This document shows, piece after piece, positions 871-25,428 of a stretch of DNA of 64,000 nt. The notes beneath the pieces were generated by a model that had not been told where the DNA came from, ran no database searches, and saw only the letters and a list, made by a program, of their open reading frames with translations. The DNA is from Rhodobacterales bacterium HKCCSP123 (GTDB taxonomy: Bacteria > Pseudomonadota > Alphaproteobacteria > Rhodobacterales > Rhodobacteraceae), in assembly GCA_015689745.1 (NCBI GenBank), contig WVSO01000010.1, positions 1-64,000 on the forward strand, read 5' to 3'. Positions within the stretch are counted from its first letter, which is position 1; each line of letters starts with the position of its first letter. Position numbers and translations under genes: made by a program.

Positions 871-3800
871 ATGCGCAGCCTTCCCCCCGGCGGCGCCGGC
901 ATCCTCGGTTATTTCACGCGTCACCGCACGGCGGCGAACCTGCTTCTCGTTCTCATGGTCGTCGCGGGCCTTGCGGCCATGCCGCAGATGCGGGCGCAGT
1001 TCTTTCCCGACGTCGTCTCCGACGAGATCGACATCGTCGTGACCTGGGACGGCGCCGGCGCAGAGGATGTGGACGAGGCCATCGTCGCGGTGATGGAGCC
1101 CGTTCTGCTGGCCGTGCCCGGCGTTGCCGGATCCTCGGCCAACAGCCGCGAGGGGCGGACCTCGATCGCGCTGGAATTCGAGCCGGGCTGGGACATGGGC
1201 CGCGCCGCAGACGAGGTGCAGCAGGCGCTGGACGCCATCACCGACCTGCCCGAAGACGCCGGCGACCCCGAAGTGCGCCGCGGTGCCTGGTGGGACCGCG
1301 TGACCGACGTCGTCATCACCGGCCCCGTCGCGCCCGCGCAGTTGGGCCGCTTCTCGGACGAACTCGTCGCCCGCCTGTTCGATGCGGGCGTCACGCGCGC
1401 CACGATCCGGGGCGTCGCGGCACCGCAGACGGTGGTCGAGGTCCCCTCGGCCTCGCTCATCCGCTACGACGTCTCGATGGCCGAGATCGCCGAGGTGATC
1501 GCAGCGGCCGCGTCGACCTCGCCGGCCGGCGACGTCGATGCGGCCAACGCCCGCATTCGCACCGGGGCCGCGCAGCGCAGCGCCGCCGAGATCGCCGCGC
1601 TGACCCTTCGGACCAACGCGGACGGGTCGGCTCTGACCATCGGCGACGTCGCCGTCGTCCGGACCGAGGGCGTCGACCGCGAGCGCGCCTACTTTGTCGG
1701 CGAGAACCCCGCCATCTCGATCCGCGTCGACCGCTCCGAGGACGGTGACGCCATCGCCATTCAGCGCGTGGTGGAAGAGGTCGCCGCCGAGATGCAGGCG
1801 ACCCTGCCCGAAGGCACCACCATCGACCTGATCCGCACACGGGCCGATGCGATCACGGGGCGGCTCAACATCCTTCTGGACAACGCGCTCCTCGGTCTTG
1901 CCCTCGTCGTGGGCCTGCTCTTCCTGTTCCTCAACGCGCGCACGGCCTTCTGGGTGGCCGCGGGAATCCCCGTCGCGCTGACCGCGGCCATCGCGCTGAT
2001 GTGGGTGGCGGGGCTGACCATCAACATGATCTCGCTTTTCGCGCTGATCATCACGCTCGGGATCGTCGTCGATGACGCCATCGTGGTGGGCGAGCACGCC
2101 GACTACCGCGCCCGGAAGCTGGGCGAAGACCCGGTAACCGCTGCCGAAACCGCCGCCCGCCGCATGGCCGCACCGGTCTTCTCGGCCACGATCACCACCG
2201 TTCTGGCCTTTGCCGCGCTCACCTCGGTCGGCGGGCGCTTCGGCAGCCTGATCGCCGACATCCCCTTCACGGTGATCGTTGTGCTGATCGCCTCGCTGGT
2301 CGAGTGCTTCCTGATCCTGCCCAACCACATGGCGCATGCGCTCGCCCACTCGGCGAAGACGCATTGGTACGACATCCCCTCGCGCGTGGTGAACCGCGGC
2401 TTCGATTGGGTGAAGGAACGGCTCTTCCGCCCCGCCATGCGGCTTGTCATCGCCGCGCGATACCCGGTGCTGGCAGCGGTCATCCTTGTCCTTGCCACGC
2501 AGGTCGCCAGCTTCATCCGGGGTGACGTGACCTGGCGTTTCTTCAACGCGCCCGAGCTCAGCTCGGTCTCGGGCAACTTCGCCATGCTCGACGGCGCGAC
2601 GCGCGAAGACAGCCTTGCCATGGTGCGCGAGATGCAGCGCGCCACCGAGGCGGTTGCCGCCCGTTACGAGGAAGAACACGGGCTGAATCCGCTGCTCTAC
2701 GTGCTGGCCGAGGTCGGCGGGAACACGGGCGGCGGTCTCTCGGGGGTCGACAACAAGGATGCCGACCTGCTCGGCTCCATCGCGATCGAACTGATCGACG
2801 CCGACCTGCGCCCCTATTCCAGCTTCGCCTTCGTGGCCGCCCTTCAGGACGAGGTGCGCCAGCTTCCGCTGACCGAAACCGTCAGCTTCCGCGGTTTCCG
2901 CGGCGGGCCGGGCGGCGATGCCATCGACGTGCAGATCTTCGGCGCCGACACCGCGACGCTGAAGGCGGCGGCGGTCTCTCTGCAAACCCAGCTCGGCCGC
3001 TTCGGCGAGGTTTCGGGCCTGCAGGACAGCATGGCCTATGACCGCGAGGAACTGTCGCTCGAACTGACCCCGCAGGGCGAGGCGCTTGGCTTCGAGATCG
3101 GTGCGCTGGGGCGCGTGTTGCGCAACCGCCTCGGCGGGATCGAGGCGGCGACCTATCCCGACGGGCCACGCACGGCCTCGATCCGGGTCGAGCTGCCGGC
3201 GGGCGAGCTGACCGCCGATTTCCTCGACCGCACGCTTCTGCGCGCGGCCTCGGGCCAATACGTGCCGCTGGCCGATATCGTCACCGTCACCGCGCGGCAG
3301 GGCTTTTCCACGATCCAGCGCGAGAACGGCGTGCGCCTGATCTCGGTCACCGGCGACCTGTCCGAGGATGACCCCGCCCGCGCCGCCGAGATCATGACCG
3401 AGCTGCAGGAGGTCATCATACCGGGGATCGAGGAACGCTTCGGCGTCGCCACGCGGCTCTCGGGCCTGGCCGAGCAGGAGCGGGAGTTCCTCGACGACGC
3501 CATGACCGGCTTCGTCCTGTGCCTGCTGGGCATCTACCTTGTGCTGGCCTGGATCTTCGCCAGCTGGACCCGGCCGATGGTCGTGATGGCAATCATCCCC
3601 TTCGGCCTTGTGGGCACGATCTACGGCCATGTCCTGTGGGATGTGCCGCTCTCGATGTTCACGGTCGTCGGGCTGATCGGGATGACCGGCATCATCATCA
3701 ACGATTCGATCGTGCTGGTGACCACCATCGACGAATACGCCGAGGACCGCGGGCTGATCCCCGCGATCATCGACGGCACCTGCGACCGCCTGCGGCCCGT

Positions 3801-4251
3801 GCTCCTGACCACGCTCACGACCGTTCTCGGGCTTGCGCCGCTGCTTTACGAAGGGTCGGCCGATGCGCAGTTCCTGAAGCCGACGGTCATCACGCTGGTC
3901 TATGGCCTTGGTTTCGGCATGGTGATCGTCCTGTTGGTCGTGCCAGCCATCCTCGCCATGCAGCAGGATTTCGCCAAGCAGCTGACGGCGCTCCGCCGGG
4001 CCACGGGAACGCTCTCGCGGCATCCGGCGATGGGGCTGGGTCTGGGCGCGCTGGGCGTGGCGCTTGCCGGCCTCTTCGCAGCGACGCTGGGCAGCGCGCT
4101 GGCGACGGGCGGCATGATCGGCCCGCTTGCCGGGCTGGGTGACGGGACGGGACCGGCGCTCGGGGTGTTCCTTGGCGGAGCTGCGATGCTTTGCGTCGCG
4201 GCCTGGATCGTCGCCGCGCTGCTGCACGCTGTCAGTCGCCGCACGACGTAG
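871..4251 (+). CDS. RND superfamily efflux permease (AcrB/MdtC-like, HAE1-type)
   Basis: 1126 residues, a proton-driven inner-membrane exporter working with the adaptor just upstream. It has the RND layout: a first transmembrane helix near residues 20-40, a large periplasmic loop, a first helix cluster with the proton-relay motif GIVVDDAIVVGEH, a second periplasmic loop, and a second cluster with GIIINDSIVLV. The start ATG follows the adaptor stop by 3 bases. The protein is longer than the usual 1020-1050 residues because of an Ala/Gly-rich hydrophobic C-terminal tail of about 80 residues that could form two extra helices. Substrate class (drug or heavy metal) is not evident, though the DD pair fits drug-type pumps better than CusA. 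Confidence 0.92.
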   Translation: MRSLPPGGAGILGYFTRHRTAANLLLVLMVVAGLAAMPQMRAQFFPDVVSDEIDIVVTWDGAGAEDVDEAIVAVMEPVLLAVPGVAGSSANSREGRTSIALEFEPGWDMGRAADEVQQALDAITDLPEDAGDPEVRRGAWWDRVTDVVITGPVAPAQLGRFSDELVARLFDAGVTRATIRGVAAPQTVVEVPSASLIRYDVSMAEIAEVIAAAASTSPAGDVDAANARIRTGAAQRSAAEIAALTLRTNADGSALTIGDVAVVRTEGVDRERAYFVGENPAISIRVDRSEDGDAIAIQRVVEEVAAEMQATLPEGTTIDLIRTRADAITGRLNILLDNALLGLALVVGLLFLFLNARTAFWVAAGIPVALTAAIALMWVAGLTINMISLFALIITLGIVVDDAIVVGEHADYRARKLGEDPVTAAETAARRMAAPVFSATITTVLAFAALTSVGGRFGSLIADIPFTVIVVLIASLVECFLILPNHMAHALAHSAKTHWYDIPSRVVNRGFDWVKERLFRPAMRLVIAARYPVLAAVILVLATQVASFIRGDVTWRFFNAPELSSVSGNFAMLDGATREDSLAMVREMQRATEAVAARYEEEHGLNPLLYVLAEVGGNTGGGLSGVDNKDADLLGSIAIELIDADLRPYSSFAFVAALQDEVRQLPLTETVSFRGFRGGPGGDAIDVQIFGADTATLKAAAVSLQTQLGRFGEVSGLQDSMAYDREELSLELTPQGEALGFEIGALGRVLRNRLGGIEAATYPDGPRTASIRVELPAGELTADFLDRTLLRAASGQYVPLADIVTVTARQGFSTIQRENGVRLISVTGDLSEDDPARAAEIMTELQEVIIPGIEERFGVATRLSGLAEQEREFLDDAMTGFVLCLLGIYLVLAWIFASWTRPMVVMAIIPFGLVGTIYGHVLWDVPLSMFTVVGLIGMTGIIINDSIVLVTTIDEYAEDRGLIPAIIDGTCDRLRPVLLTTLTTVLGLAPLLYEGSADAQFLKPTVITLVYGLGFGMVIVLLVVPAILAMQQDFAKQLTALRRATGTLSRHPAMGLGLGALGVALAGLFAATLGSALATGGMIGPLAGLGDGTGPALGVFLGGAAMLCVAAWIVAALLHAVSRRTT

Positions 4252-4321
4252 AGCGGGCGCCCTTGCCCGCCGCCCGCCACGCTGCACCTGCGCCGCGATG
4301 CTGTCGTGATGGCCACGGCCC

Positions 4322-5146
4322 TCAGCCGGTGCAGCCGTCCAGTTCCACGGCCATGCGGGTCCCGATCACTGTGATCCGAAGGTCCGAGCGGTTCAGCGCG
4401 AACGGTCCGCTGTCCGCGGGCACGACATCCACCGTTCCGCGGATCGTGCCGCCCTCGCGGCGGGTGACCGCCTCGGACACCCAGATCTGCGGGTCGCGGT
4501 GTTCCACCACCAGGGTCTCGTCGTTCCCGGTCGAGGGCATCGGCGCGGAGACCGTCACCCGCAAGCCGTCCGAGATCGGCTCGATCGCGCAGGTCGCCTG
4601 GCCGGCGCCCGCCTCTCCGGCGGTCAGCGGACGGTTCGACAGCGCGAGCCCGATCTCGCGGACCCGCTCGGTCACCTCGGGCAGAATGCCCTCGAGGTCC
4701 AGTGTCACCGGCATGCACACGTCGAGACAGACACCCATGTCCACGCGGCCCGCGATCTCGACCGAGCCATCGCCGCTCAGCGCGAACTCGACGGGCAGCA
4801 CCACGTCGTTGCGATAACCGATCGACCGCATGCCGTTGGTGAAGAAGACCTCGGGGCGCGGCCAGTGGATCGCCATGCCGGTGATGCCGTCGGCCTCGGT
4901 CAGGCGCAGCACCGTTGGAACCCCGCCTTCGCCCGGCGCGCGCCAGTAGGTCTTCCATCCCGGCGCCAGCACGATCTGGATGCCCGCCATGTGGTTCCCG
5001 TTGGCCATTCGCCAGCCGGGCAGGAACGAGACCTGCACCACGTCCTCGACCGTCCGGCCTTCGAATTCCGCGAAGGCGGGGGCCGCCGACAGGGCGGTTG
5101 CGCAGGCCAGGAGCGAGGCGAGGGTTTTTCGGGCGGTGTCGAGCAT
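4322..5146 (-). CDS. Periplasmic DsbD N-terminal-domain-like protein
   Basis: 274 residues starting with a signal peptide (ends about residue 26, AFA|EFEG). The body resembles the immunoglobulin-like thiol-reductase domain (DsbD alpha, also seen in ScsB) found in electron-relay proteins of the periplasm. A Cys pair (C140-LDV-C144, in GVCLDVCMP) is the likely redox centre. There is no membrane domain, so it would act as a free periplasmic thiol carrier or chaperone. The ATG at 5146 was chosen because it opens the signal peptide; the frame is open further upstream without signal-like sequence. It is divergent from yqgE. Partner and substrate are unknown. Confidence 0.75.
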   Translation of the reverse strand: MLDTARKTLASLLACATALSAAPAFAEFEGRTVEDVVQVSFLPGWRMANGNHMAGIQIVLAPGWKTYWRAPGEGGVPTVLRLTEADGITGMAIHWPRPEVFFTNGMRSIGYRNDVVLPVEFALSGDGSVEIAGRVDMGVCLDVCMPVTLDLEGILPEVTERVREIGLALSNRPLTAGEAGAGQATCAIEPISDGLRVTVSAPMPSTGNDETLVVEHRDPQIWVSEAVTRREGGTIRGTVDVVPADSGPFALNRSDLRITVIGTRMAVELDGCTG

Positions 5147-5269
5147 CTCACCGGAGCTAGGCAGTGACGACTGAAATGGAAAGTCACGTTTTGGCGAAAC
5201 GCCCGTGTCTGTGACCACCTTGCCGCGCCCCGCTTGATTGCCGGGGATGCAAACCCCATCCTTGGCAGC

Positions 5270-5851
5270 ATGACACGTCACCCCGCGCCGCCCGAAGACC
5301 TGACCGGCAAGCTGCTGATCGCGATGCCCGACATGGGCGACCCGCGGTTTCATGGCAGCGTGGTGTTCCTCTGCGCGCACTCCGGCGACGGCGCGATGGG
5401 GCTCATCGTCAACAAGCCGATGCCGGACGTGCGCTTTCCGCAGCTCCTCGACCAGCTCGAGATCACGCATGGCCCCGTCACGCCCGACATCTCGGTCTGC
5501 TACGGCGGCCCCGTCGAGCTGCGCCGCGGCTTTGTCCTGCATTCCGCCGAATATCACGGCGACCGAGAGGAGCGCCTCGAGATCGACGACCGCTTCGCCA
5601 TGACCGCGACGCTCGACGTGCTCGAGGACATGGCCCGCGGCACCGGCCCCGCGAAGGCGCTTCTGACGCTGGGTTATGCCGGCTGGGGTCCGGGACAGCT
5701 CGAGGGCGAGATCCGCGATAACGGCTGGCTGACGACCGAGGCCGCGCCGAAGATCGTCTTCGACACACGCATGGAGGCCAAGTGGGAAGCGGCGCTGGCC
5801 TCGCTCGGCATCTCGCCCCTGACCCTCTCCTCCAGGGCCGGGCATGCCTGA
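5270..5851 (+). CDS. YqgE/AlgH family protein (DUF179)
   Basis: 193 residues, the usual family size. The family signatures are all present: an N-terminal LTGKLLIAMPDM, then FLCAHSGDGAMGLIVNKP, a YGGPVELRRGFVLH block and a C-terminal GYAGWGPGQLEGEI motif. Proteins of this family are small alpha/beta cytoplasmic proteins; AlgH was linked to alginate control in Pseudomonas but a biochemical activity is not established. I start at ATG 5270 because the conserved sequence begins right after it; a TTG at 5234 would add 12 residues. Confidence 0.9.
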   Translation: MTRHPAPPEDLTGKLLIAMPDMGDPRFHGSVVFLCAHSGDGAMGLIVNKPMPDVRFPQLLDQLEITHGPVTPDISVCYGGPVELRRGFVLHSAEYHGDREERLEIDDRFAMTATLDVLEDMARGTGPAKALLTLGYAGWGPGQLEGEIRDNGWLTTEAAPKIVFDTRMEAKWEAALASLGISPLTLSSRAGHA

Positions 5852-5878
5852 TCCGGACCCCATCCGAAAGGACATCGC

Positions 5879-6514
5879 ATGAAGCTTGCCGTCATCGGCG
5901 CAAGCCGAGGGATCGGCCGCAAGGTCGTCGACTATGCCCTGAGCCGCGGCCATTCCGTGCGCGCCGTCGCCCGCAGCGCCGGCGAGATGGGGATCGAGGC
6001 CGAGGGCTTCGAGGCAATGCCGGGCGATGCCACGGACAGGGCGCTCCTCGCCCGCGCGGTCGAGGGGGTGGATGCCGTGATCCTCGCCATCGGCGCACCG
6101 CGGGACCTGCGCGTGGTGAAGCCGACGACACTTTTCTCCACCGTTGCACGCGCGCTGATCCCGGCAATGGAAGCGGCAGGGGTCAAGCGTCTTCTGGCCG
6201 TGACCGGCTTCGGCGCGGGCGACAGCGAGGCGAAACTGTCGACGCTGGAAAAGATCCCCTTCAAGCTGCTTCTCGGCCGCGCCTACGCCGACAAGGCGGT
6301 GCAGGAGGAAATGATCAAGGCCTCGTCGCTCGACTGGACCATCGCGCGGCCCGGCCTTCTCAACGACAACGCGATGACCGGGAAGTACAAGGTGCTGGTC
6401 GAGCCCGAGACCTGGCGCCAGGGGCTCATCAGCCGTGCCGACGTGGCCCATTTCCTCGTCCACGCCGCCGAGGACGCCAGCCACGTCCACCAGACCCCGG
6501 CCCTCCAGCGCTGA
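5879..6514 (+). CDS. NAD(P)-binding atypical short-chain dehydrogenase/reductase
   Basis: 211 residues with a Rossmann glycine motif at the N-terminus (VIGASRGIGRKV, GxxxxxG) and a WTIARPGLL segment typical of atypical extended SDR proteins of the SDR_a5 / NmrA-like / biliverdin reductase B type. The classical YxxxK catalytic pair is not evident (the RAYADK segment is only similar), so it may act as a redox sensor or bind flavin or NADPH without classical SDR chemistry. It follows yqgE by 27 bases on the same strand and is likely co-transcribed. Its 3' end is followed directly by the TTGCAA palindrome array. Confidence 0.75.
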   Translation: MKLAVIGASRGIGRKVVDYALSRGHSVRAVARSAGEMGIEAEGFEAMPGDATDRALLARAVEGVDAVILAIGAPRDLRVVKPTTLFSTVARALIPAMEAAGVKRLLAVTGFGAGDSEAKLSTLEKIPFKLLLGRAYADKAVQEEMIKASSLDWTIARPGLLNDNAMTGKYKVLVEPETWRQGLISRADVAHFLVHAAEDASHVHQTPALQR

Positions 6515-6530
6515 GGCCCGCCACGGGCGG

Positions 6531-6635
6531 CAAGGCGCTTGCAAGCGCCTTGCAAGGCGCTTTCGACGCGATTTGCAAATCGCGTGACAAGCCCGTTGCA
6601 ACGGGCTTCGCCCAACCCACACGCAAGCGCGTGGG
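6531..6635. repeat. Array of TTGCAA-centred perfect palindromes
   Basis: Four perfect palindromes, 20 to 22 bp each, lie almost end to end: 6531-6552, 6543-6562 (overlapping the first), 6566-6585 and 6589-6608. All share the core TTGCAA but the arms differ completely and are self-complementary in each copy. A fifth, imperfect one (6616-6635) has a different centre (CGCAAGCG) and one mismatched pair. Centres are spaced 11, 23 and 23 bp. The array sits in the 126-base gap between the 3' ends of the convergent SDR gene and caiB. The arms would form strong hairpins in RNA from both strands, so a bidirectional terminator-like or REP-type role is possible. Confidence 0.8.
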
Positions 6636-6640
6636 CCGGG

Positions 6641-7780
6641 TCAGTCCCGCGGGCTCCAGCCGTCGCGGGCGTCATCCTCGCCGAGCCGCGGCGCGGGCCG
6701 CTCAAGCGCCACCTCCGCGTCGGAGAAGCGGAAGGGCGGGCGCACGCCCGGCACGCCGTCCAGCTCGATCCGTGCGCCGCGTGCCTTCACCTGCGGGTCG
6801 GCGAAGACCTCGGCCAGGTCGTTGATCGGCCCCGCGGGCACGCCCTCGGCCTCGCAGGCGGCCAACAGGTCGGCCTTGGCCCAGGTCAGGGTCGCACCCG
6901 TCAGGCGCCGGGTCATCTCGGCGCGATGCGCGATCCGGTCGGCATTGGTCAGGTAGTCGGGATGCCCTGCCATCTCGCCGAGCCCCAGGATGCCGCAGAG
7001 CCGCCGGTATTGCGCGTCATTGCCGGTGGCGATGATGATCCAGCCGTCGGCGCAGTCGAAGACCTGGTAGGGCGTCAGGTTCTGGTGTGCGTTCCCGATC
7101 CGCTCCGGCGCGACGCCGGTCGTCAGGTAGTTCATCGCCTGGTTCGCCATCACGGACACGGCGGTGTCCAGGAGGCTCATGTCGATATGCTGGCCCGTGC
7201 CGGTCGCCTGCCGCAGGTGCAGCGCGGCGAGGATCGCGTTCGAGGCATAAAGCCCGGTGAAGATGTCGGTGACCGCCACGCCCACCTTCTGCGGCTGCCC
7301 CTCGGGTGCGCCGGTCACCGACATCAGCCCGCTCATGCCCTGGATGATGTAATCGTAGCCAGCCCGGTGCGCATAGGGCCCGGTCTGGCCGAAGCCGGTG
7401 ATCGAGCAATAGATCAGCCCGGGGTTCACCGCCCTAAGGCTCTCGTAGTCGAGGCCGTATTTCGCGAGCCCGCCGAGCTTGAAGTTCTCGATCAGGACAT
7501 CCGCCCCGCGGGCGAGGGCGACCACGCGGGCGCGGCCTTCCTCGGTGCGGAAGTCCGCCGTCACGGACCGCTTTCCACGGTTGCAGGCGTGAAAATAGGC
7601 GGCCGAGCGGTCGCCCTCCCGCTCGACGAAGGGCGGGCCCCAGCGGCGGGTGTCGTCGCCCTCGGGCGCCTCGACCTTGATGACCTCGGCGCCCAGGTCG
7701 GCCAGCGTCTGACCGGCCCAGGGGCCGGCCAGGATGCGCGCCAGTTCGAGGACGCGGACGCCCTTCAGCGGCGCGGTCAT
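6641..7780 (-). CDS. CaiB/BaiF family CoA transferase (class III)
   Basis: 379 residues. Class III CoA transferases move CoA between carboxylic acids by way of an aspartyl-CoA thioester. Visible signatures are the N-terminal VLELARILAGPWAGQTLADLGAEVIKVE, the GDDTRRWGPPF block, DVLIENFK and the SLLDTAVSVMANQAM region; the Asp in IDMSLLD is the probable nucleophile. The start codon overlaps the dsbA-like stop by 4 bases (ATGA), so it is the last gene of a dciA-dsbA-caiB operon. The acyl substrate cannot be predicted; formyl-, succinyl- or other CoA donors are possible. Confidence 0.9.
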   Translation of the reverse strand: MTAPLKGVRVLELARILAGPWAGQTLADLGAEVIKVEAPEGDDTRRWGPPFVEREGDRSAAYFHACNRGKRSVTADFRTEEGRARVVALARGADVLIENFKLGGLAKYGLDYESLRAVNPGLIYCSITGFGQTGPYAHRAGYDYIIQGMSGLMSVTGAPEGQPQKVGVAVTDIFTGLYASNAILAALHLRQATGTGQHIDMSLLDTAVSVMANQAMNYLTTGVAPERIGNAHQNLTPYQVFDCADGWIIIATGNDAQYRRLCGILGLGEMAGHPDYLTNADRIAHRAEMTRRLTGATLTWAKADLLAACEAEGVPAGPINDLAEVFADPQVKARGARIELDGVPGVRPPFRFSDAEVALERPAPRLGEDDARDGWSPRD

Positions 7781-15248: not shown

Positions 15249-16922
15249 CTACTCCGCCGGTTCCGTGACGCGGTCCTCGCGCATCTGCTCGGTCCCCCCG
15301 CCACAGGCCTTGACCGAGGCCGGATCGCGCCCCGCCACCGCCCCGTTCGGCATCAGGAATTCCCCGTTCCGCGACATCTTCGCCGCCCGCTTCTGCGCCG
15401 CGATATCCTGCTTGGACTGCCAATCGTCCGTCTGCGCCTGCGCGATCGTCCGGGTCCGGTCGAAGTTGAAGTTGAGCTTCCCCTTCGACTGCGGCCCCCA
15501 GTAATCCACCTTGCCGAGGTCGTAGAACTGCCGCGCGAAACCCGCCTTCATGAAGGCCTTGAGGCAGCCCAGCAGGTATTTCCGCCGATACCCCGTGCCG
15601 CGCCACGGGTAATGGAACAGCGCCTTCTTCGAATAGAACCGCCGGTAGTTGTTCATCACCCGATCCAGAAGCTCGTCGCGGTCCATCGCCTCGGGCTTCA
15701 TGATGGGCGTCACGAAATTGTATTTCGAGAAATCGAAGATCTCGACCTTGTCGCCGAGCTCCTGGAAGAGCGGCGTGAAGGGCCAGGGCGTGTACATCGC
15801 CCAGTTGGCGAGGTCCGGCTGCCAGTCCCAGGCCATCTTGTAGGTCTCTTCCAACGTCTCCGGCGTCTCGTTGTCGAGCCCCACGATGAACTGCGCCTCG
15901 GTGAAGATGTCGGCCTCGCGCAGCAGACGAATCGCCTCCTTGTTCTCCTCGACCTTGGTCTCCTTGTTGAACTGGTCGAGCTTCAGCTGCGCCGCGGCTT
16001 CCGTCCCGAGGCTGATATGCACCAGCCCCGCCGAGCGGTAGAACTTCAGCAACTCCCGGTCGCGGTAGATATCCGTCACCCGCGTGTTGATCCCCCATTG
16101 CACGCGGCGCGGCAGGTCGCGCTTGATCAGCTCCTCGCAGAACTGGATGAACTTGCGCCGGTTGATCGTCGGTTCCTCGTCGGCCAGGATGAAGAACCCC
16201 ACCCCATGCTCGTTCACGAGGGTCTCGATCTCGTCCACGACCTTGATCGGATCGCGCACGCGGTAATCGCGCCAGAATTTCCACTGGCTGCAGAAGGAAC
16301 AGGTGAAGGGACAGCCCCGCGCCATGTTCGGGATCGCCACCTTCACGCCCAGCGGCACGTAGATGTAGCTGTCCCATTTCAGCAGTGACCAGTCCGGCGT
16401 GATCGCGTCGAGGTCCTTCACCGTCGAGGCCGCCGGCGTCGCCACGATCTCCTCGCCGTCGCGATAGGCCAGCCCCTTGATCGAGGCGCGCTCGGCAGGC
16501 CAGCGCCCCTCGTCCATCGCGCGGATCAGCTCGACGATGATCTCCTCGCCCTCGCCGCGCACGATCACGTCGATGCCCGTGGCCTCGGACAGCACCTGTT
16601 TGTACATGAAGGTCGCATGGATGCCGCCAAGGATCGTGCGCACCTTCGGCAGCACCTCCTTGGCCACCGCCAGCGTCTCCTCGGCCACGTAGATCGACGG
16701 CGTGATCGCCGTCGTGCCCACCACGTCGGGCTGCATCTCGGCGAGCTTCACCCGAAGCTGGGCGGGGCTCAGGTGATCCGTCATCGCGTCGAGGAAATGG
16801 ATGTCGGTGTAGCCCGCGGCCTTCAGGGCGCCCGCGATATAGGCGACCCAGGCCGGCGGCCAGTTCCCTGCGATCTCGGCCCCCCCGGAATGGTAATTGG
16901 GATGGATAAGACAGATTCGCAT
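15249..16922 (-). CDS. bchE: Anaerobic Mg-protoporphyrin IX monomethyl ester cyclase (BchE)
   Basis: 557 residues. Oxygen-independent formation of the fifth ring (ring E) of bacteriochlorophyll by a cobalamin-dependent radical SAM enzyme. The N-terminal 130 residues form a B12-binding fold ([19 protein letters not shown] start, [11 protein letters not shown]), the 4Fe-4S ligands are C204-x3-C208-x2-C211 ([10 protein letters not shown]), and the C-terminal part carries [18 protein letters not shown], typical of BchE rather than other B12 radical SAM proteins. The promoter region upstream holds a PpsR-type palindrome overlapping an FnrL-type box. bchJ follows in the same operon. No other photosynthesis gene lies within the window. 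Confidence 0.95.
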
Positions 16923-19221: not shown

Positions 19222-22566
<3,345 letters not shown>

Positions 22567-22570
22567 CGCC

Positions 22571-22623
22571 GTAGGGTGGGGTTCCACACCACCACACCGC
22601 CGTAGGCCGGGCTTCAGCCCGGC
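22571..22623. repeat. Two adjacent intergenic palindromes (GTAGGGTGGG and GTAGGCCGGGC types)
   Basis: A degenerate copy of the GTAGGGTGGG family (22571-22592) is followed by a perfect hairpin at 22606-22623 (GCCGGGCT, 2-base loop, AGCCCGGC). The second contains the stop codon of the HicB-like gene (22614-22616) in its loop, so the last three residues of that protein are encoded by the repeat. Related elements lie at 38990, 53211, 53254, 57535, 61398 and 61463. Confidence 0.75.
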
Positions 22624-22832
22624 ACGTCCGGCCGCCCCTTCAAGAACTCCACCGCCCAGTCCGGGTCCCCGTCCTTCCCCCGTTCGGCAAAGAACTGCGC
22701 CGCCCCGCTTGCGCCCACCTTCTCGGCCAGCGCCAGCGCGATGAACTGGTTCAGGGAAACCCCGTCCTTCGCGGCGAATTCCTCCGCCGCCCGCTTAAGC
22801 CATTGGGGAAGTCGAACCGTGGTCCTCGGCAT
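22614..22832 (-). CDS. Small ribbon-helix-helix protein, HicB-like orphan antitoxin
   Basis: 72 residues. The segment MPRTTVRLPQWLKRAAEEFAAKDG followed by SLNQFIALALAEKV is a typical Arc/CopG ribbon-helix-helix DNA-binding fold as found at the C-terminus of HicB antitoxins. No HicA-type toxin lies on either side. AAGGG 7 bases ahead of ATG 22832 supports this start. It lies 58 bases downstream of the BrnA-like gene and is probably co-transcribed. It may be a stand-alone regulator or a leftover of a toxin-antitoxin locus. Confidence 0.75.
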   Translation of the reverse strand: MPRTTVRLPQWLKRAAEEFAAKDGVSLNQFIALALAEKVGASGAAQFFAERGKDGDPDWAVEFLKGRPDVPG

Positions 22833-22890
22833 AGGAGCGCCCTTTCGATCAATCTCCGGATAGCACCACGACGCGCTCGGCAAAACAACC

Positions 22891-23289
22891 TCACTCCCCC
22901 CTCTTCCCCGCCCGCTCCTTCTCCGTATCCCCCCACTCCGGCATCCGCTGGCGCGCTTGCCAGTTCTCCTTGAAGGGCTCCACCGTCTCCTCCCCGTGCA
23001 GGAGCCCCGCCAGCTTCGCATGCATGAAGGCGCGCAGCACGTCGTTCATCCGGGGCTGATACCCCGGCCCCATCGAGCGGAACCATTTCACCACGTCCGC
23101 ATCCACCCGCAGCGTCAGCTGCACCTTCGGGCTTTCGCGCCGCGTCGCGATGTCGTGCCATTCCACCGGGATGCGCTGGTCCAGCCAGATGCGCTGGTGC
23201 ATGTCCCATTCGAAGCGCCTCAGCGCGTCGACCATGTAATAGTGATGCTCCCGCTGGCGTGGGCCCAGCGGCTTCTCGGTGTCGGCCAT
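22891..23289 (-). CDS. BrnA-like antitoxin without a BrnT partner
   Basis: 132 residues. The C-terminal half (about residues 55-105: VQLTLRVDADVVKWFRSMGPGYQPRMNDVLRAFM) is the ribbon-helix-helix domain of BrnA/DUF4415 antitoxins. The first 50 residues form a separate charged segment (HHYYMVDALRRFEWDMHQRIW) found in longer BrnA-type proteins. No BrnT toxin reading frame lies next to it on either strand. ATG 23289 is chosen; a GTG at 23295 is possible. An RNA hairpin covers the ribosome-binding region and an operator-like inverted repeat lies further upstream. Confidence 0.75.
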   Translation of the reverse strand: MADTEKPLGPRQREHHYYMVDALRRFEWDMHQRIWLDQRIPVEWHDIATRRESPKVQLTLRVDADVVKWFRSMGPGYQPRMNDVLRAFMHAKLAGLLHGEETVEPFKENWQARQRMPEWGDTEKERAGKRGE

Positions 23290-23294
23290 CGCCA

Positions 23295-23318
23295 CCCCCG
23301 TTTCGACCAGAACGGGGG
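23295..23318 (-). promoter_or_regulatory. Hairpin covering the ribosome-binding region of the BrnA-like gene
   Basis: A perfect 8-bp stem (arms 23295-23302 and 23311-23318, 8-base loop) would form in the transcript. The downstream arm contains the GGGGG that serves as ribosome site and ends 5 bases before ATG 23289, so folding would hide the start region. Translational control is inference. Confidence 0.45.
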
Positions 23319-24752: not shown

Positions 24753-24809
24753 GGGGCGCATCCCTCTGGCAAGTGGCGTCCGGGGACGCATACGCCAAAG
24801 GAAAACGCC

Positions 24810-24974
24810 TCACAAGCCGCGCGCGCAGTCCCGGGCCTGCGGGGCAGGGCAGCCGGCGACCGACCCACCGGCAAGGCTCCCCCGGATATCCGCCCCTGCC
24901 GAACCGATCGACAGGACCAGCGCCAGCAAAGCCGAGGCGACGAGGTAGAGGAGGCTTGGTGCAATCCGTGCCAT
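24810..24974 (-). CDS. Small membrane or secreted protein, 54 residues
   Basis: A hydrophobic helix (PSLLYLVASALLALVLSI) ends in a possible signal-peptidase site (SAGA), followed by a short tail with two cysteines (GCPAPQARDC). The start overlaps the stop of the preceding 42-residue gene by one base (TGATG), and GGAGG lies 7-8 bases ahead, so both are probably translated from one mRNA. I do not recognise the family. Confidence 0.5.
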   Translation of the reverse strand: MARIAPSLLYLVASALLALVLSIGSAGADIRGSLAGGSVAGCPAPQARDCARGL

Positions 24975-25102
24975 CACGAGGCCTCCACATGACCAGGGGG
25001 CAGCGGGTCCGCGCCCGCGGCCTGCAGTCCTGTCACGAGGACCACCCCCGCGGCCAGCGACAGCGCAAGAAGCGCGGCTGAAAGGATGTTGAAGAGCGAC
25101 AT
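24974..25102 (-). CDS. Small membrane protein, 42 residues
   Basis: One predicted transmembrane helix (ILSAALLALSLAAGVVLVTGL) and a short Pro-rich tail. GGAGA lies 7 bases ahead of ATG 25102. It is followed by the overlapping 54-residue gene. An upstream GGGTAGGGA element is shared with the 32-residue gene. Family unknown. Confidence 0.5.
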   Translation of the reverse strand: MSLFNILSAALLALSLAAGVVLVTGLQAAGADPLPPGHVEAS

Positions 25103-25168
25103 GGCACTGTCTCCGGTGCTGGGTGCCGCGAGGGTAGGCGGCAGGTCCGTGGCGCGACAGTCAGGCTT

Positions 25169-25177
25169 TCCCTACCC
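25169..25177 (-). promoter_or_regulatory. GGGTAGGGA element upstream of the 42-residue gene
   Basis: Read on the minus strand, GGGTAGGGA is followed by AAGCCTG and lies 67 bases ahead of the start. The same nonamer occurs upstream of the 32-residue gene (25420-25428). The pattern TAGGGA-WW-nCC resembles half-dyads bound by LuxR/NarL-type response regulators. Binding protein unknown. Confidence 0.35.
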
Positions 25178-25184
25178 ACCAGGA

Positions 25185-25212
25185 AAAAAGGCCCCCCAAG
25201 ACGCGGGGGGCC
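25185..25212 (-). terminator. Intrinsic terminator after the 32-residue gene
   Basis: A GC-rich hairpin with arms GGCCCCCC and GGGGGGCC (25190-25212 on the plus strand) is followed on the minus strand by a run of six T. It ends the transcript of the 32-residue gene 28 bases after its stop codon, supporting that gene as a real, separate transcription unit. Confidence 0.75.
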
Positions 25213-25239
25213 AGTCCATCAGGGATGGGAAAACAAAGA

Positions 25240-25338
25240 TCACGCCGCCCCTGTCGGGCCCGGCCCGAAAACGATCACCGCGAACACCAGGGCCACGAAC
25301 GCCACGAGGGACGAGACGCGCATGCCGCGGATGAGCAT
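25240..25338 (-). CDS. Very small membrane protein, 32 residues
   Basis: A single hydrophobic helix (SLVAFVALVFAVIVFG) with a positively charged N-terminus. GGAG lies 8 bases ahead of ATG 25338, an intrinsic terminator follows 28 bases after the stop, and a GGGTAGGGA element lies 82 bases upstream. These surroundings are those of a real gene. Family unknown; it could be a stress-induced single-helix peptide. Confidence 0.5.
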   Translation of the reverse strand: MLIRGMRVSSLVAFVALVFAVIVFGPGPTGAA

Positions 25339-25419
25339 GGCAGCATCTCCGGGCCGGGCCGATCGGGACGACGCCATCATGAGCCTAGATGCGACCGCAC
25401 CCCGGCCACATGGCGGGAA

Positions 25420-25428
25420 TCCCTACCC
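25420..25428 (-). promoter_or_regulatory. GGGTAGGGA element upstream of the 32-residue gene
   Basis: Read on the minus strand, the nonamer continues as TTCCCGCC, forming a GGGA-TTCCC dyad. It lies just before the 3' end of ppx. Same nonamer at 25169-25177. Confidence 0.35.

Follow-up and report, generated by a model that had tools for sequence, protein, structure and literature searches.

Between ppx and proS in the Roseicyclus group of the Rhodobacteraceae lies what we read, with confidence somewhat better than even, as two small-protein cassettes that are specific to the lineage and regulated locally; the first is probably an mRNA carrying a 3′ UTR-derived small RNA of a known kind. The evidence, all of it drawn from sequence comparison, comprises the resemblance of the two units, their conservation among relatives, a fixed spacing within their promoters and, in five relatives, an RNA core followed by a terminator. 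We further infer an activator, transcription, the processing and targets of the RNA, and a membrane location for the products; the label "membrane protein" for the small ORFs is based on hydrophobicity only.

The three small ORFs, of 32 and of 42 plus 54 amino acids, lie within positions 24810–25428 of the window (the whole stretch of 64,000 nucleotides that was analysed), where the order on the minus strand is ppx – unit 1 – unit 2 – proS. The ppx side is defined by Pfam matches to Ppx/GppA phosphatase and polyphosphate kinase, the opposite side by one to a class II tRNA synthetase, which we read as proS. Unit 1 opens, some 10 bases past the ppx stop codon, with a putative promoter, P1 (25382–25427), in which the element GGTAGGGATTCCC (25427–25415) is followed by a -10-like TAGGCT (25387–25382), the two starts lying 40 bases apart. 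Its 32-residue ORF (25240–25338; coding 25338–25243, stop 25242–25240) encodes one hydrophobic segment (MLIRGMRVSSLVAFVALVFAVIVFGPGPTGAA), and its 3′ UTR holds a SorX/SorY/alphaR8-like module (25183–25260). Unit 2 has the same plan: a putative promoter, P2 (25131–25176), with element GGTAGGGAAAGCC (25176–25164) and -10-like TACCCT (25136–25131) at the same 40-base interval, then a 42-residue, signal-anchor-like ORF (MSLFNILSAALLALSLAAGVVLVTGLQAAGADPLPPGHVEAS; 24974–25102, coding 25102–24977, stop 24976–24974) and a poorly conserved 54-residue ORF with a signal-peptide-like N-terminus (24810–24974, coding 24974–24813), the ATG of which has one base in common with the preceding TGA (TGATG). GGAG ends 8 bases ahead of the 32- and 42-residue ATGs, and GGAGG ends 7 bases ahead of the 54-residue ATG. 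A separate promoter probably serves proS: CTTGTG, 18 bases and TATGCG (24787–24816), overlapping the 54-residue stop codon.

A preliminary description had recorded three small ORFs with their ribosome sites, two upstream elements and a T-rich terminator behind the 32-residue gene; all are present on the minus strand, the terminator as a stem at 25212–25190 followed by six T. We saw no account of this locus among the open-licence papers surveyed, and searches of the small ORFs against Pfam and NCBIfam gave no model above its cut-off, the sub-threshold matches being to DUF5316 (E 0.1), DUF2964 (E 0.067) and TatA_Rickett (E 0.1). On the far side of proS, before a large ORF at 19222–22566, two further minus-strand ORFs match HicB (22614–23021; 26.4 bits, cut-off 21) and BrnA_antitoxin (22891–23295; 59.4 bits, cut-off 26.1), and are possible toxin-antitoxin relics.

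The distribution of the units was established by comparing the DNA after ppx in 13 genomes of the genus (G000 being that of the window) and in the top 80 among 528 named relatives; the best of these by ppx include records of Roseicyclus and Roseibacterium and another entered under the name Maritalea mobilis (L084). Both units occupy the same place in 4 of the 13 genus genomes (G000, G004, G011 and G012) and at three named loci: L084, and L085 and L086, which belong to uncultured Roseicyclus and are near copies of each other. G002, G005 and G008 have unit 1 alone, G010 and G003 a reduced unit 1, and no such unit was seen in G001, G006, G007 and G009. Profiles of the unit proteins recovered little more than the sequences' own genome: one weak match besides in 149 family genomes (profile A1) and one in 295 (profile A3), both short models of limited reach. 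The proteins of the two units are alike – each with an M-S/T-x-x-N start and one hydrophobic segment – and so are the contexts of their ribosome sites; together these likenesses indicate that the units are probably diverged duplicates. Among these close relatives the cassette of small genes appears to undergo both duplication and decay.

The scheme that we favour may be set out as follows. A promoter-plus-tiny-ORF cassette would have arisen, or arrived, between ppx and proS in the Roseicyclus lineage and then duplicated. Each copy would have a weak -10, its -35 region replaced at a fixed distance by a 13–20 base activator site (GGTAGGGAWWSCCnnMMT), and both would be turned on by one DNA-binding activator that works chiefly, perhaps exclusively, at this locus. 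Unit 1 would yield a single-pass membrane peptide of 31–34 residues and, in several relatives, an mRNA ending in a SorX/SorY/alphaR8-like RNA (CCUCCCUGUUGGACU before a strong terminator), which, like SorX, may be released from the 3′ UTR by cleavage and pair with other mRNAs at their Shine-Dalgarno regions. Unit 2 would yield a signal-anchored peptide of 42–69 residues, sometimes with a second small exported-looking ORF behind it. In the window's genome unit 1 keeps its putative promoter and its terminator, but constraint looks relaxed on the ORF and on the RNA core.

The promoter element and its spacing

The elements are commoner in the window than chance would give. GGGTAGGGA, at 25428–25420 and 25177–25169, occurs twice in the 64-kb window against 0.17 expected, a count that none of 100 shuffles attained, and TAGGGAWWnCC twice against 0.11. 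The bases between element and ATG number 81 for the 32-residue and 66 for the 42-residue ORF, in place of the 82 and 67 given in the preliminary description.

Thirteen promoter sites align free of gaps. What is conserved is GGTAGGGAWWSCC, together with a T that never varies at position 18, and, over positions 41–46, TAnnnT; the spacer between element and TAnnnT is poorly conserved. Of the 12 literal GGTAGGG sites, 11 have TAnnnT at exactly offset 40 from the start of the element, against a maximum of 3 at any one offset in 5000 shuffles, a control that understates chance agreement because related species do not furnish independent sites. Cleaner evidence for the spacing is the diverged pair of units within one genome, where the two spacers are only 10–50% identical. 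The offset is kept in 12 of 17 sites once five degenerate unit 1 sites are added; of those that fail, G010 reads CAGTCT, and G002, G005 and G008 have no TAnnnT at offset 40. An extra TAnnnT at offset 17, inside the element, is present in 4 of the 12 literal sites – all of them from unit 1 – and also in G002, G005 and G008, and may be an alternative -10 of the unit 1 sites.

Given a 17-base spacer, the -35 would fall at positions 18–23, at the element's end. A consensus scan of the segment found no sigma-70 consensus promoter (the proS-promoter-like sequence likewise went unreported), and these two features together give the layout of an activator-dependent promoter. In its geometry the arrangement resembles that of class II activated promoters of sigma-70 type, with the predicted activator site at the -35 region and the -10 at a set distance (offset 40 in 11 of the 12 literal sites, or 12 of 17 with the degenerate ones). 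GGTAGGGAWWSCC would then be the upstream half of a promoter, its fixed spacing fitting an activator that covers the -35 region. Sigma-54 and ECF readings of the element were discarded on inspection, the spacing being a misfit across the whole set of sites.

Taken locally, the claim that the two units answer to one activator is plausible. The fixed distance between element and -10, held in orthologues and paralogues alike, speaks for it; the sharing of the element is in part simple inheritance, since the units look like duplicates, and common ancestry inflates the apparent agreement between promoter sites. As a separate observation, about 45 bases past the ppx stop at L071 and L072 (G002 and G005) stand TTGGCACGCCTGTTGCA and TTGGCACGGCAGTTGCA, which we take to resemble the -24/-12 elements of sigma-54 promoters. 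They occupy the place of TAnnnT in most other unit 1 promoters, where G004 has TTGGCATAGCCTTTGCA, and the promoter type of unit 1 in G002 and G005 has possibly changed.

The 3′ end of unit 1

The likeness of the terminator region to SorX and alphaR8 RNAs, which the preliminary description missed, is the most informative addition made here, and it comes from the relatives more than from the window. Against Rfam the window's 3′ UTR scores 21.6 bits for SorX, 19.6 for suhB and 18.6 for SorY, all below gathering; those of the relatives, also all below gathering, reach 23.7–36.8 bits for SorX (36.8 and 36.7 in G002 and G005), up to 38.0 for SorY (G004) and 31.5 for suhB/MmgR (RF00519; G004, gathering 41). 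The SorX gathering cut-off (RF02784, 46.6 bits), which no unit 1 attains, separates little in this genus, since none of the 13 genomes has any match above it (best 43.4). Per-genome SorX E-values at unit 1 are 4e-7 in G002 and G005, 1e-5 in G012, 3e-5 in G004 and 0.003 in G011; the window's match has E 0.014 and ranks fifth in its own genome. Because 10 of 14 control genomes also match at E up to 0.5, only the strong matches count.

The core, CTCCCTGnnGGACT, is present in 39 copies across the 13 genomes as against 3 in the reversed control, and five of the 39 are at unit 1: those of G002, G004, G005, G011 and G012, out of 12 loci checked. The remaining seven (the window, G003, G010, G008 and L084–L086) lack it, so the RNA part either is not ancestral to all units or has been lost. 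Where it is found, the core stands just ahead of the terminator, as CTCCCTGTTGGACT in G002, G004, G005 and G012 and as CTCCCTGACGGACT in G011, in UTRs that have otherwise diverged. The exact alphaR8 10-mer, UUUCCUCCCU, is confined to G004 and G011 among the 12 loci, and is thus absent from the window; other unit 1 copies vary around it. Single folds place a terminator stem after the core in 15 of 15 stretches, with a clear hairpin ahead of it in unit 1 of G002, G004, G005 and G011 and in four LysR-linked copies, and a less clear one in the others; in a MAFFT alignment of the RNA region this 5′ hairpin does not align. Unit 1 in the five relatives looks like a micropeptide mRNA with a 3′ RNA of SorX/alphaR8 type, in which CUCCCUGnnGGACU is joined to the terminator.

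The window's own copy is apparently decayed, its core altered to ATCCCTGATGGACT, which differs from CTCCCTGTTGGACT at two positions. A special fold of the altered core was considered and rejected: the 5-bp stem predicted for a 28-base piece (-5.0 kcal/mol) is equalled by that of G002 (5 bp, -4.9), and a longer stretch of the window does not form it.

Elsewhere, among 30 loci inspected, the core turns up towards the end of two regulator genes and in a third setting. One gene encodes a response regulator of 228 residues, OmpR-type by eye, whose receiver domain scores sub-threshold when a 53-residue piece is searched; the other is of LysR type, its HTH_1 match exceeding the cut-off. In the third setting CTCCCTG(T/C)CGGACTGGCCGAC is embedded in conserved sequence that follows a T-rich terminator. 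This last setting is seen at L169, L173, L174, L176, L179, L180, L181, L183 and L185, in the window's own genome at G000 C90:43484. The likely SorX locus, after the response-regulator gene, exists in these genomes as a separate entity.

How closely does unit 1 correspond to systems already described? CcaF1 and CcsR1–4 are linked, and CcsR depends on RpoHII; we know of no tandem duplicate of either UdsC/RSP_7527 or CcsR1–4/CcaF1. With these two systems of R. sphaeroides unit 1 has in common an mRNA for a small or hypothetical protein that carries a regulatory RNA at its 3′ side (PMC9779115, PMC8625941, PMC10253847): UdsC is derived from the 3′ UTR of an mRNA for a hypothetical protein, RSP_7527-UdsC depends on RpoHII (both PMC9779115), and CcsR1–4 come from a 3′ UTR (PMC8625941). 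SorX of Rhodobacter sphaeroides lies 3′ of an OmpR-type gene, RSP_0847 (PMC8625941), is cut from the 3′ end of its mRNA and represses potA (PMC9438474, PMC8625941). Its core (ACCUCCCUGUUGGAC), terminator and position in an mRNA 3′ UTR (PMC8625941, PMC9438474) recall those of unit 1 in the five relatives that have the core, but the parent of SorX is a response regulator whereas that of unit 1 is a tiny putative membrane-protein ORF, and unit 1 scores below gathering. The alphaR8 RNAs (MmgR, SisA–D; RF00519, suhB) consist of a weak hairpin, an unpaired UUUCCUCCCU below it and a Rho-independent terminator, with SisA repressing many targets through the 10-mer (PMC12559287). Unit 1 approaches this plan, with the exact 10-mer in G004 and G011; unlike them it is adjoined, as far as the adjacent genes go, by ppx and proS and not by the N-formylglutamate amidohydrolase gene.

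Two readings of the 3′ end follow. The more ambitious, which we advance tentatively and at clearly less than even probability, is that unit 1 is a dual-function transcript: a single activator would raise both a membrane micropeptide and, out of the 3′ UTR, an extra sibling of the alphaR8/SorX RNAs, the duplicate unit giving the peptide alone. Were this true, the sibling RNA would add a new input to a shared anti-Shine-Dalgarno network, and a micropeptide-encoding mRNA would join the parents of the SorX/alphaR8 family, the SorX parent in Rhodobacter being a response-regulator gene. The window's genome would then be losing the RNA arm (its core having changed), with the second peptide still under selection.

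The sparer reading, less likely than not but of appreciable probability, is that the 3′ end is a mere terminator, its likeness to SorX and alphaR8 being chance or an inert relic, and that the units are just small-protein genes. The sub-threshold match of the window, with a core two positions off, and the seven coreless loci speak in its favour; it fits poorly with a core retained just ahead of the terminator in five relatives whose UTRs have otherwise diverged, with SorX E-values that descend to 4e-7 per genome, and with the terminator stem that follows the core in every stretch folded.

The small ORFs and proS

The coding sequences themselves show purifying selection at unit 2 and, in several relatives, at unit 1. 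Orthologues of the 42-residue ORF are found in G004, G011, G012 and L084–L086. Over the first 29 codons the window's copy gives pN/pS of 0.22, 0.23 and 0.42 against G004, G011 and G012 and 0.48–0.67 against L084–L086; the range among the four genus genomes, G000 included, is 0.22–0.51, and the comparisons of G012 with L085 and L086 reach 1.83 and 1.53. On these substitution ratios the 42-residue ORF is under purifying selection. The 54-residue ORF matches its same-position counterpart in L085/L086 weakly (34% over 50 residues, E 4e-4 for the pair alone), and no second ORF of this type was noted in G004 and G012.

At unit 1 the picture depends on the clade. Orthologues at the same place have the pattern MxxLNTLAxSLVxL, and pN/pS over the first 27 codons is 0.22–0.58 among G002, G004, G005, G011 and G012, except for the pair G002/G005, which differs by four synonymous and no nonsynonymous changes. 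The window's copy gives 0.59–1.36 against nine relatives; outliers are G004–L084 (0.93) and G003–G010 (5.4, on few changes). These ratios, on small counts, point to relaxed constraint in the window's clade, and the 32-residue ORF is probably decaying in the window's genome – of the three the weakest as a working gene.

Could unit 2 serve proS? Transcripts from P2 might run into the synthetase gene, proline codons or the promoter tuning its expression, an arrangement compatible with the cassette model that we favour. We think it unlikely, even though no terminator was reported between unit 2 and proS, which is directly next and in the same direction. Proline-rich tails are found in some unit 2 ORFs (prolines number 7 among 65 residues for G011, 8 among 69 for L084 and 8 among 61 for the second ORF of L086), but those of the window (3 of 42 and 3 of 54), G004 (1 of 51) and G012 (2 of 46) are not proline-rich, and the intervening proS-promoter-like sequence also precedes proS in genomes without units, for example L076–L079. 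Unit 1 cannot act as such a leader because it ends in a terminator. A curiosity of the same region is an exported-looking, proline-rich tail of TPxGGWGIDxPAP type, carried by the unit 2 protein or the next ORF of L074, L084 and L085/L086 just upstream of the prolyl-tRNA synthetase gene; it has no Pfam or NCBIfam match above cut-off.

Reach of the element beyond the locus

A profile of the whole 46-base promoter (R1), built from these sites and used to score 150 of 2207–6839 candidates per genome in the 13 genomes, returned nine sites whose E-values do not exceed 5.2e-4, every one of them at the ppx–proS locus; the next best stood at 0.041. In the window's own genome P1 scores 28.7 bits (E 7.4e-6) and P2 30.9 bits (E 1.5e-6), the model containing both. 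The exact 13-mer has 15 matches in the 13 genomes (8 in the reversed control), and a -10 accompanies all seven exact GGTAGGGAWWSCC matches within the locus and none of the eight elsewhere. With up to one mismatch the 13-mer has 48 matches in the own genome against 36 in the reversed control, and the 19-mer with up to three mismatches has 78 genome-wide against 229. Across 394 genomes of the family the 19-mer has 9 matches, spread over 8 genomes (6 matches in the reversed control); two are in the own genome, and one of these two is at the locus. A family-wide element was considered and set aside: the eight matches outside the locus look like chance, because none has TAnnnT at offset 40. We found no paper connecting TAGGGA with a Rhodobacter regulator.

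On this evidence no regulon is seen outside the locus, with the qualifications that 150 candidates per genome were scored and that diverged sites could be missed. The suggestion that the elements mark an envelope stress response finds no support, and the refuting condition that the preliminary description set for itself is largely borne out: neither the own genome nor the genus yielded another clear promoter of the kind. A wider regulon – two operons under an envelope-stress activator with many TAGGGA targets – is very improbable, for all that two elements, small hydrophobic products, a fixed promoter geometry and one weaker, correctly spaced candidate in the own genome might be cited in its favour, since there is little or no genome-wide excess of the element over reversed controls and the significant R1 sites, among the candidates scored, are at this locus only. 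If the scheme set out above is right, the activator site might have perhaps only two promoters, and the protein that binds it could be fished for directly.

The weaker candidate, at C35 of G000 (about 16189–16234, plus strand, within L059), consists of the element GGTGCGGATTTCC with TAACCT at offset 40. It lies 80 bases ahead of a 149-residue ORF with a signal-peptide-like start, and is a possible third target in the window's own genome.
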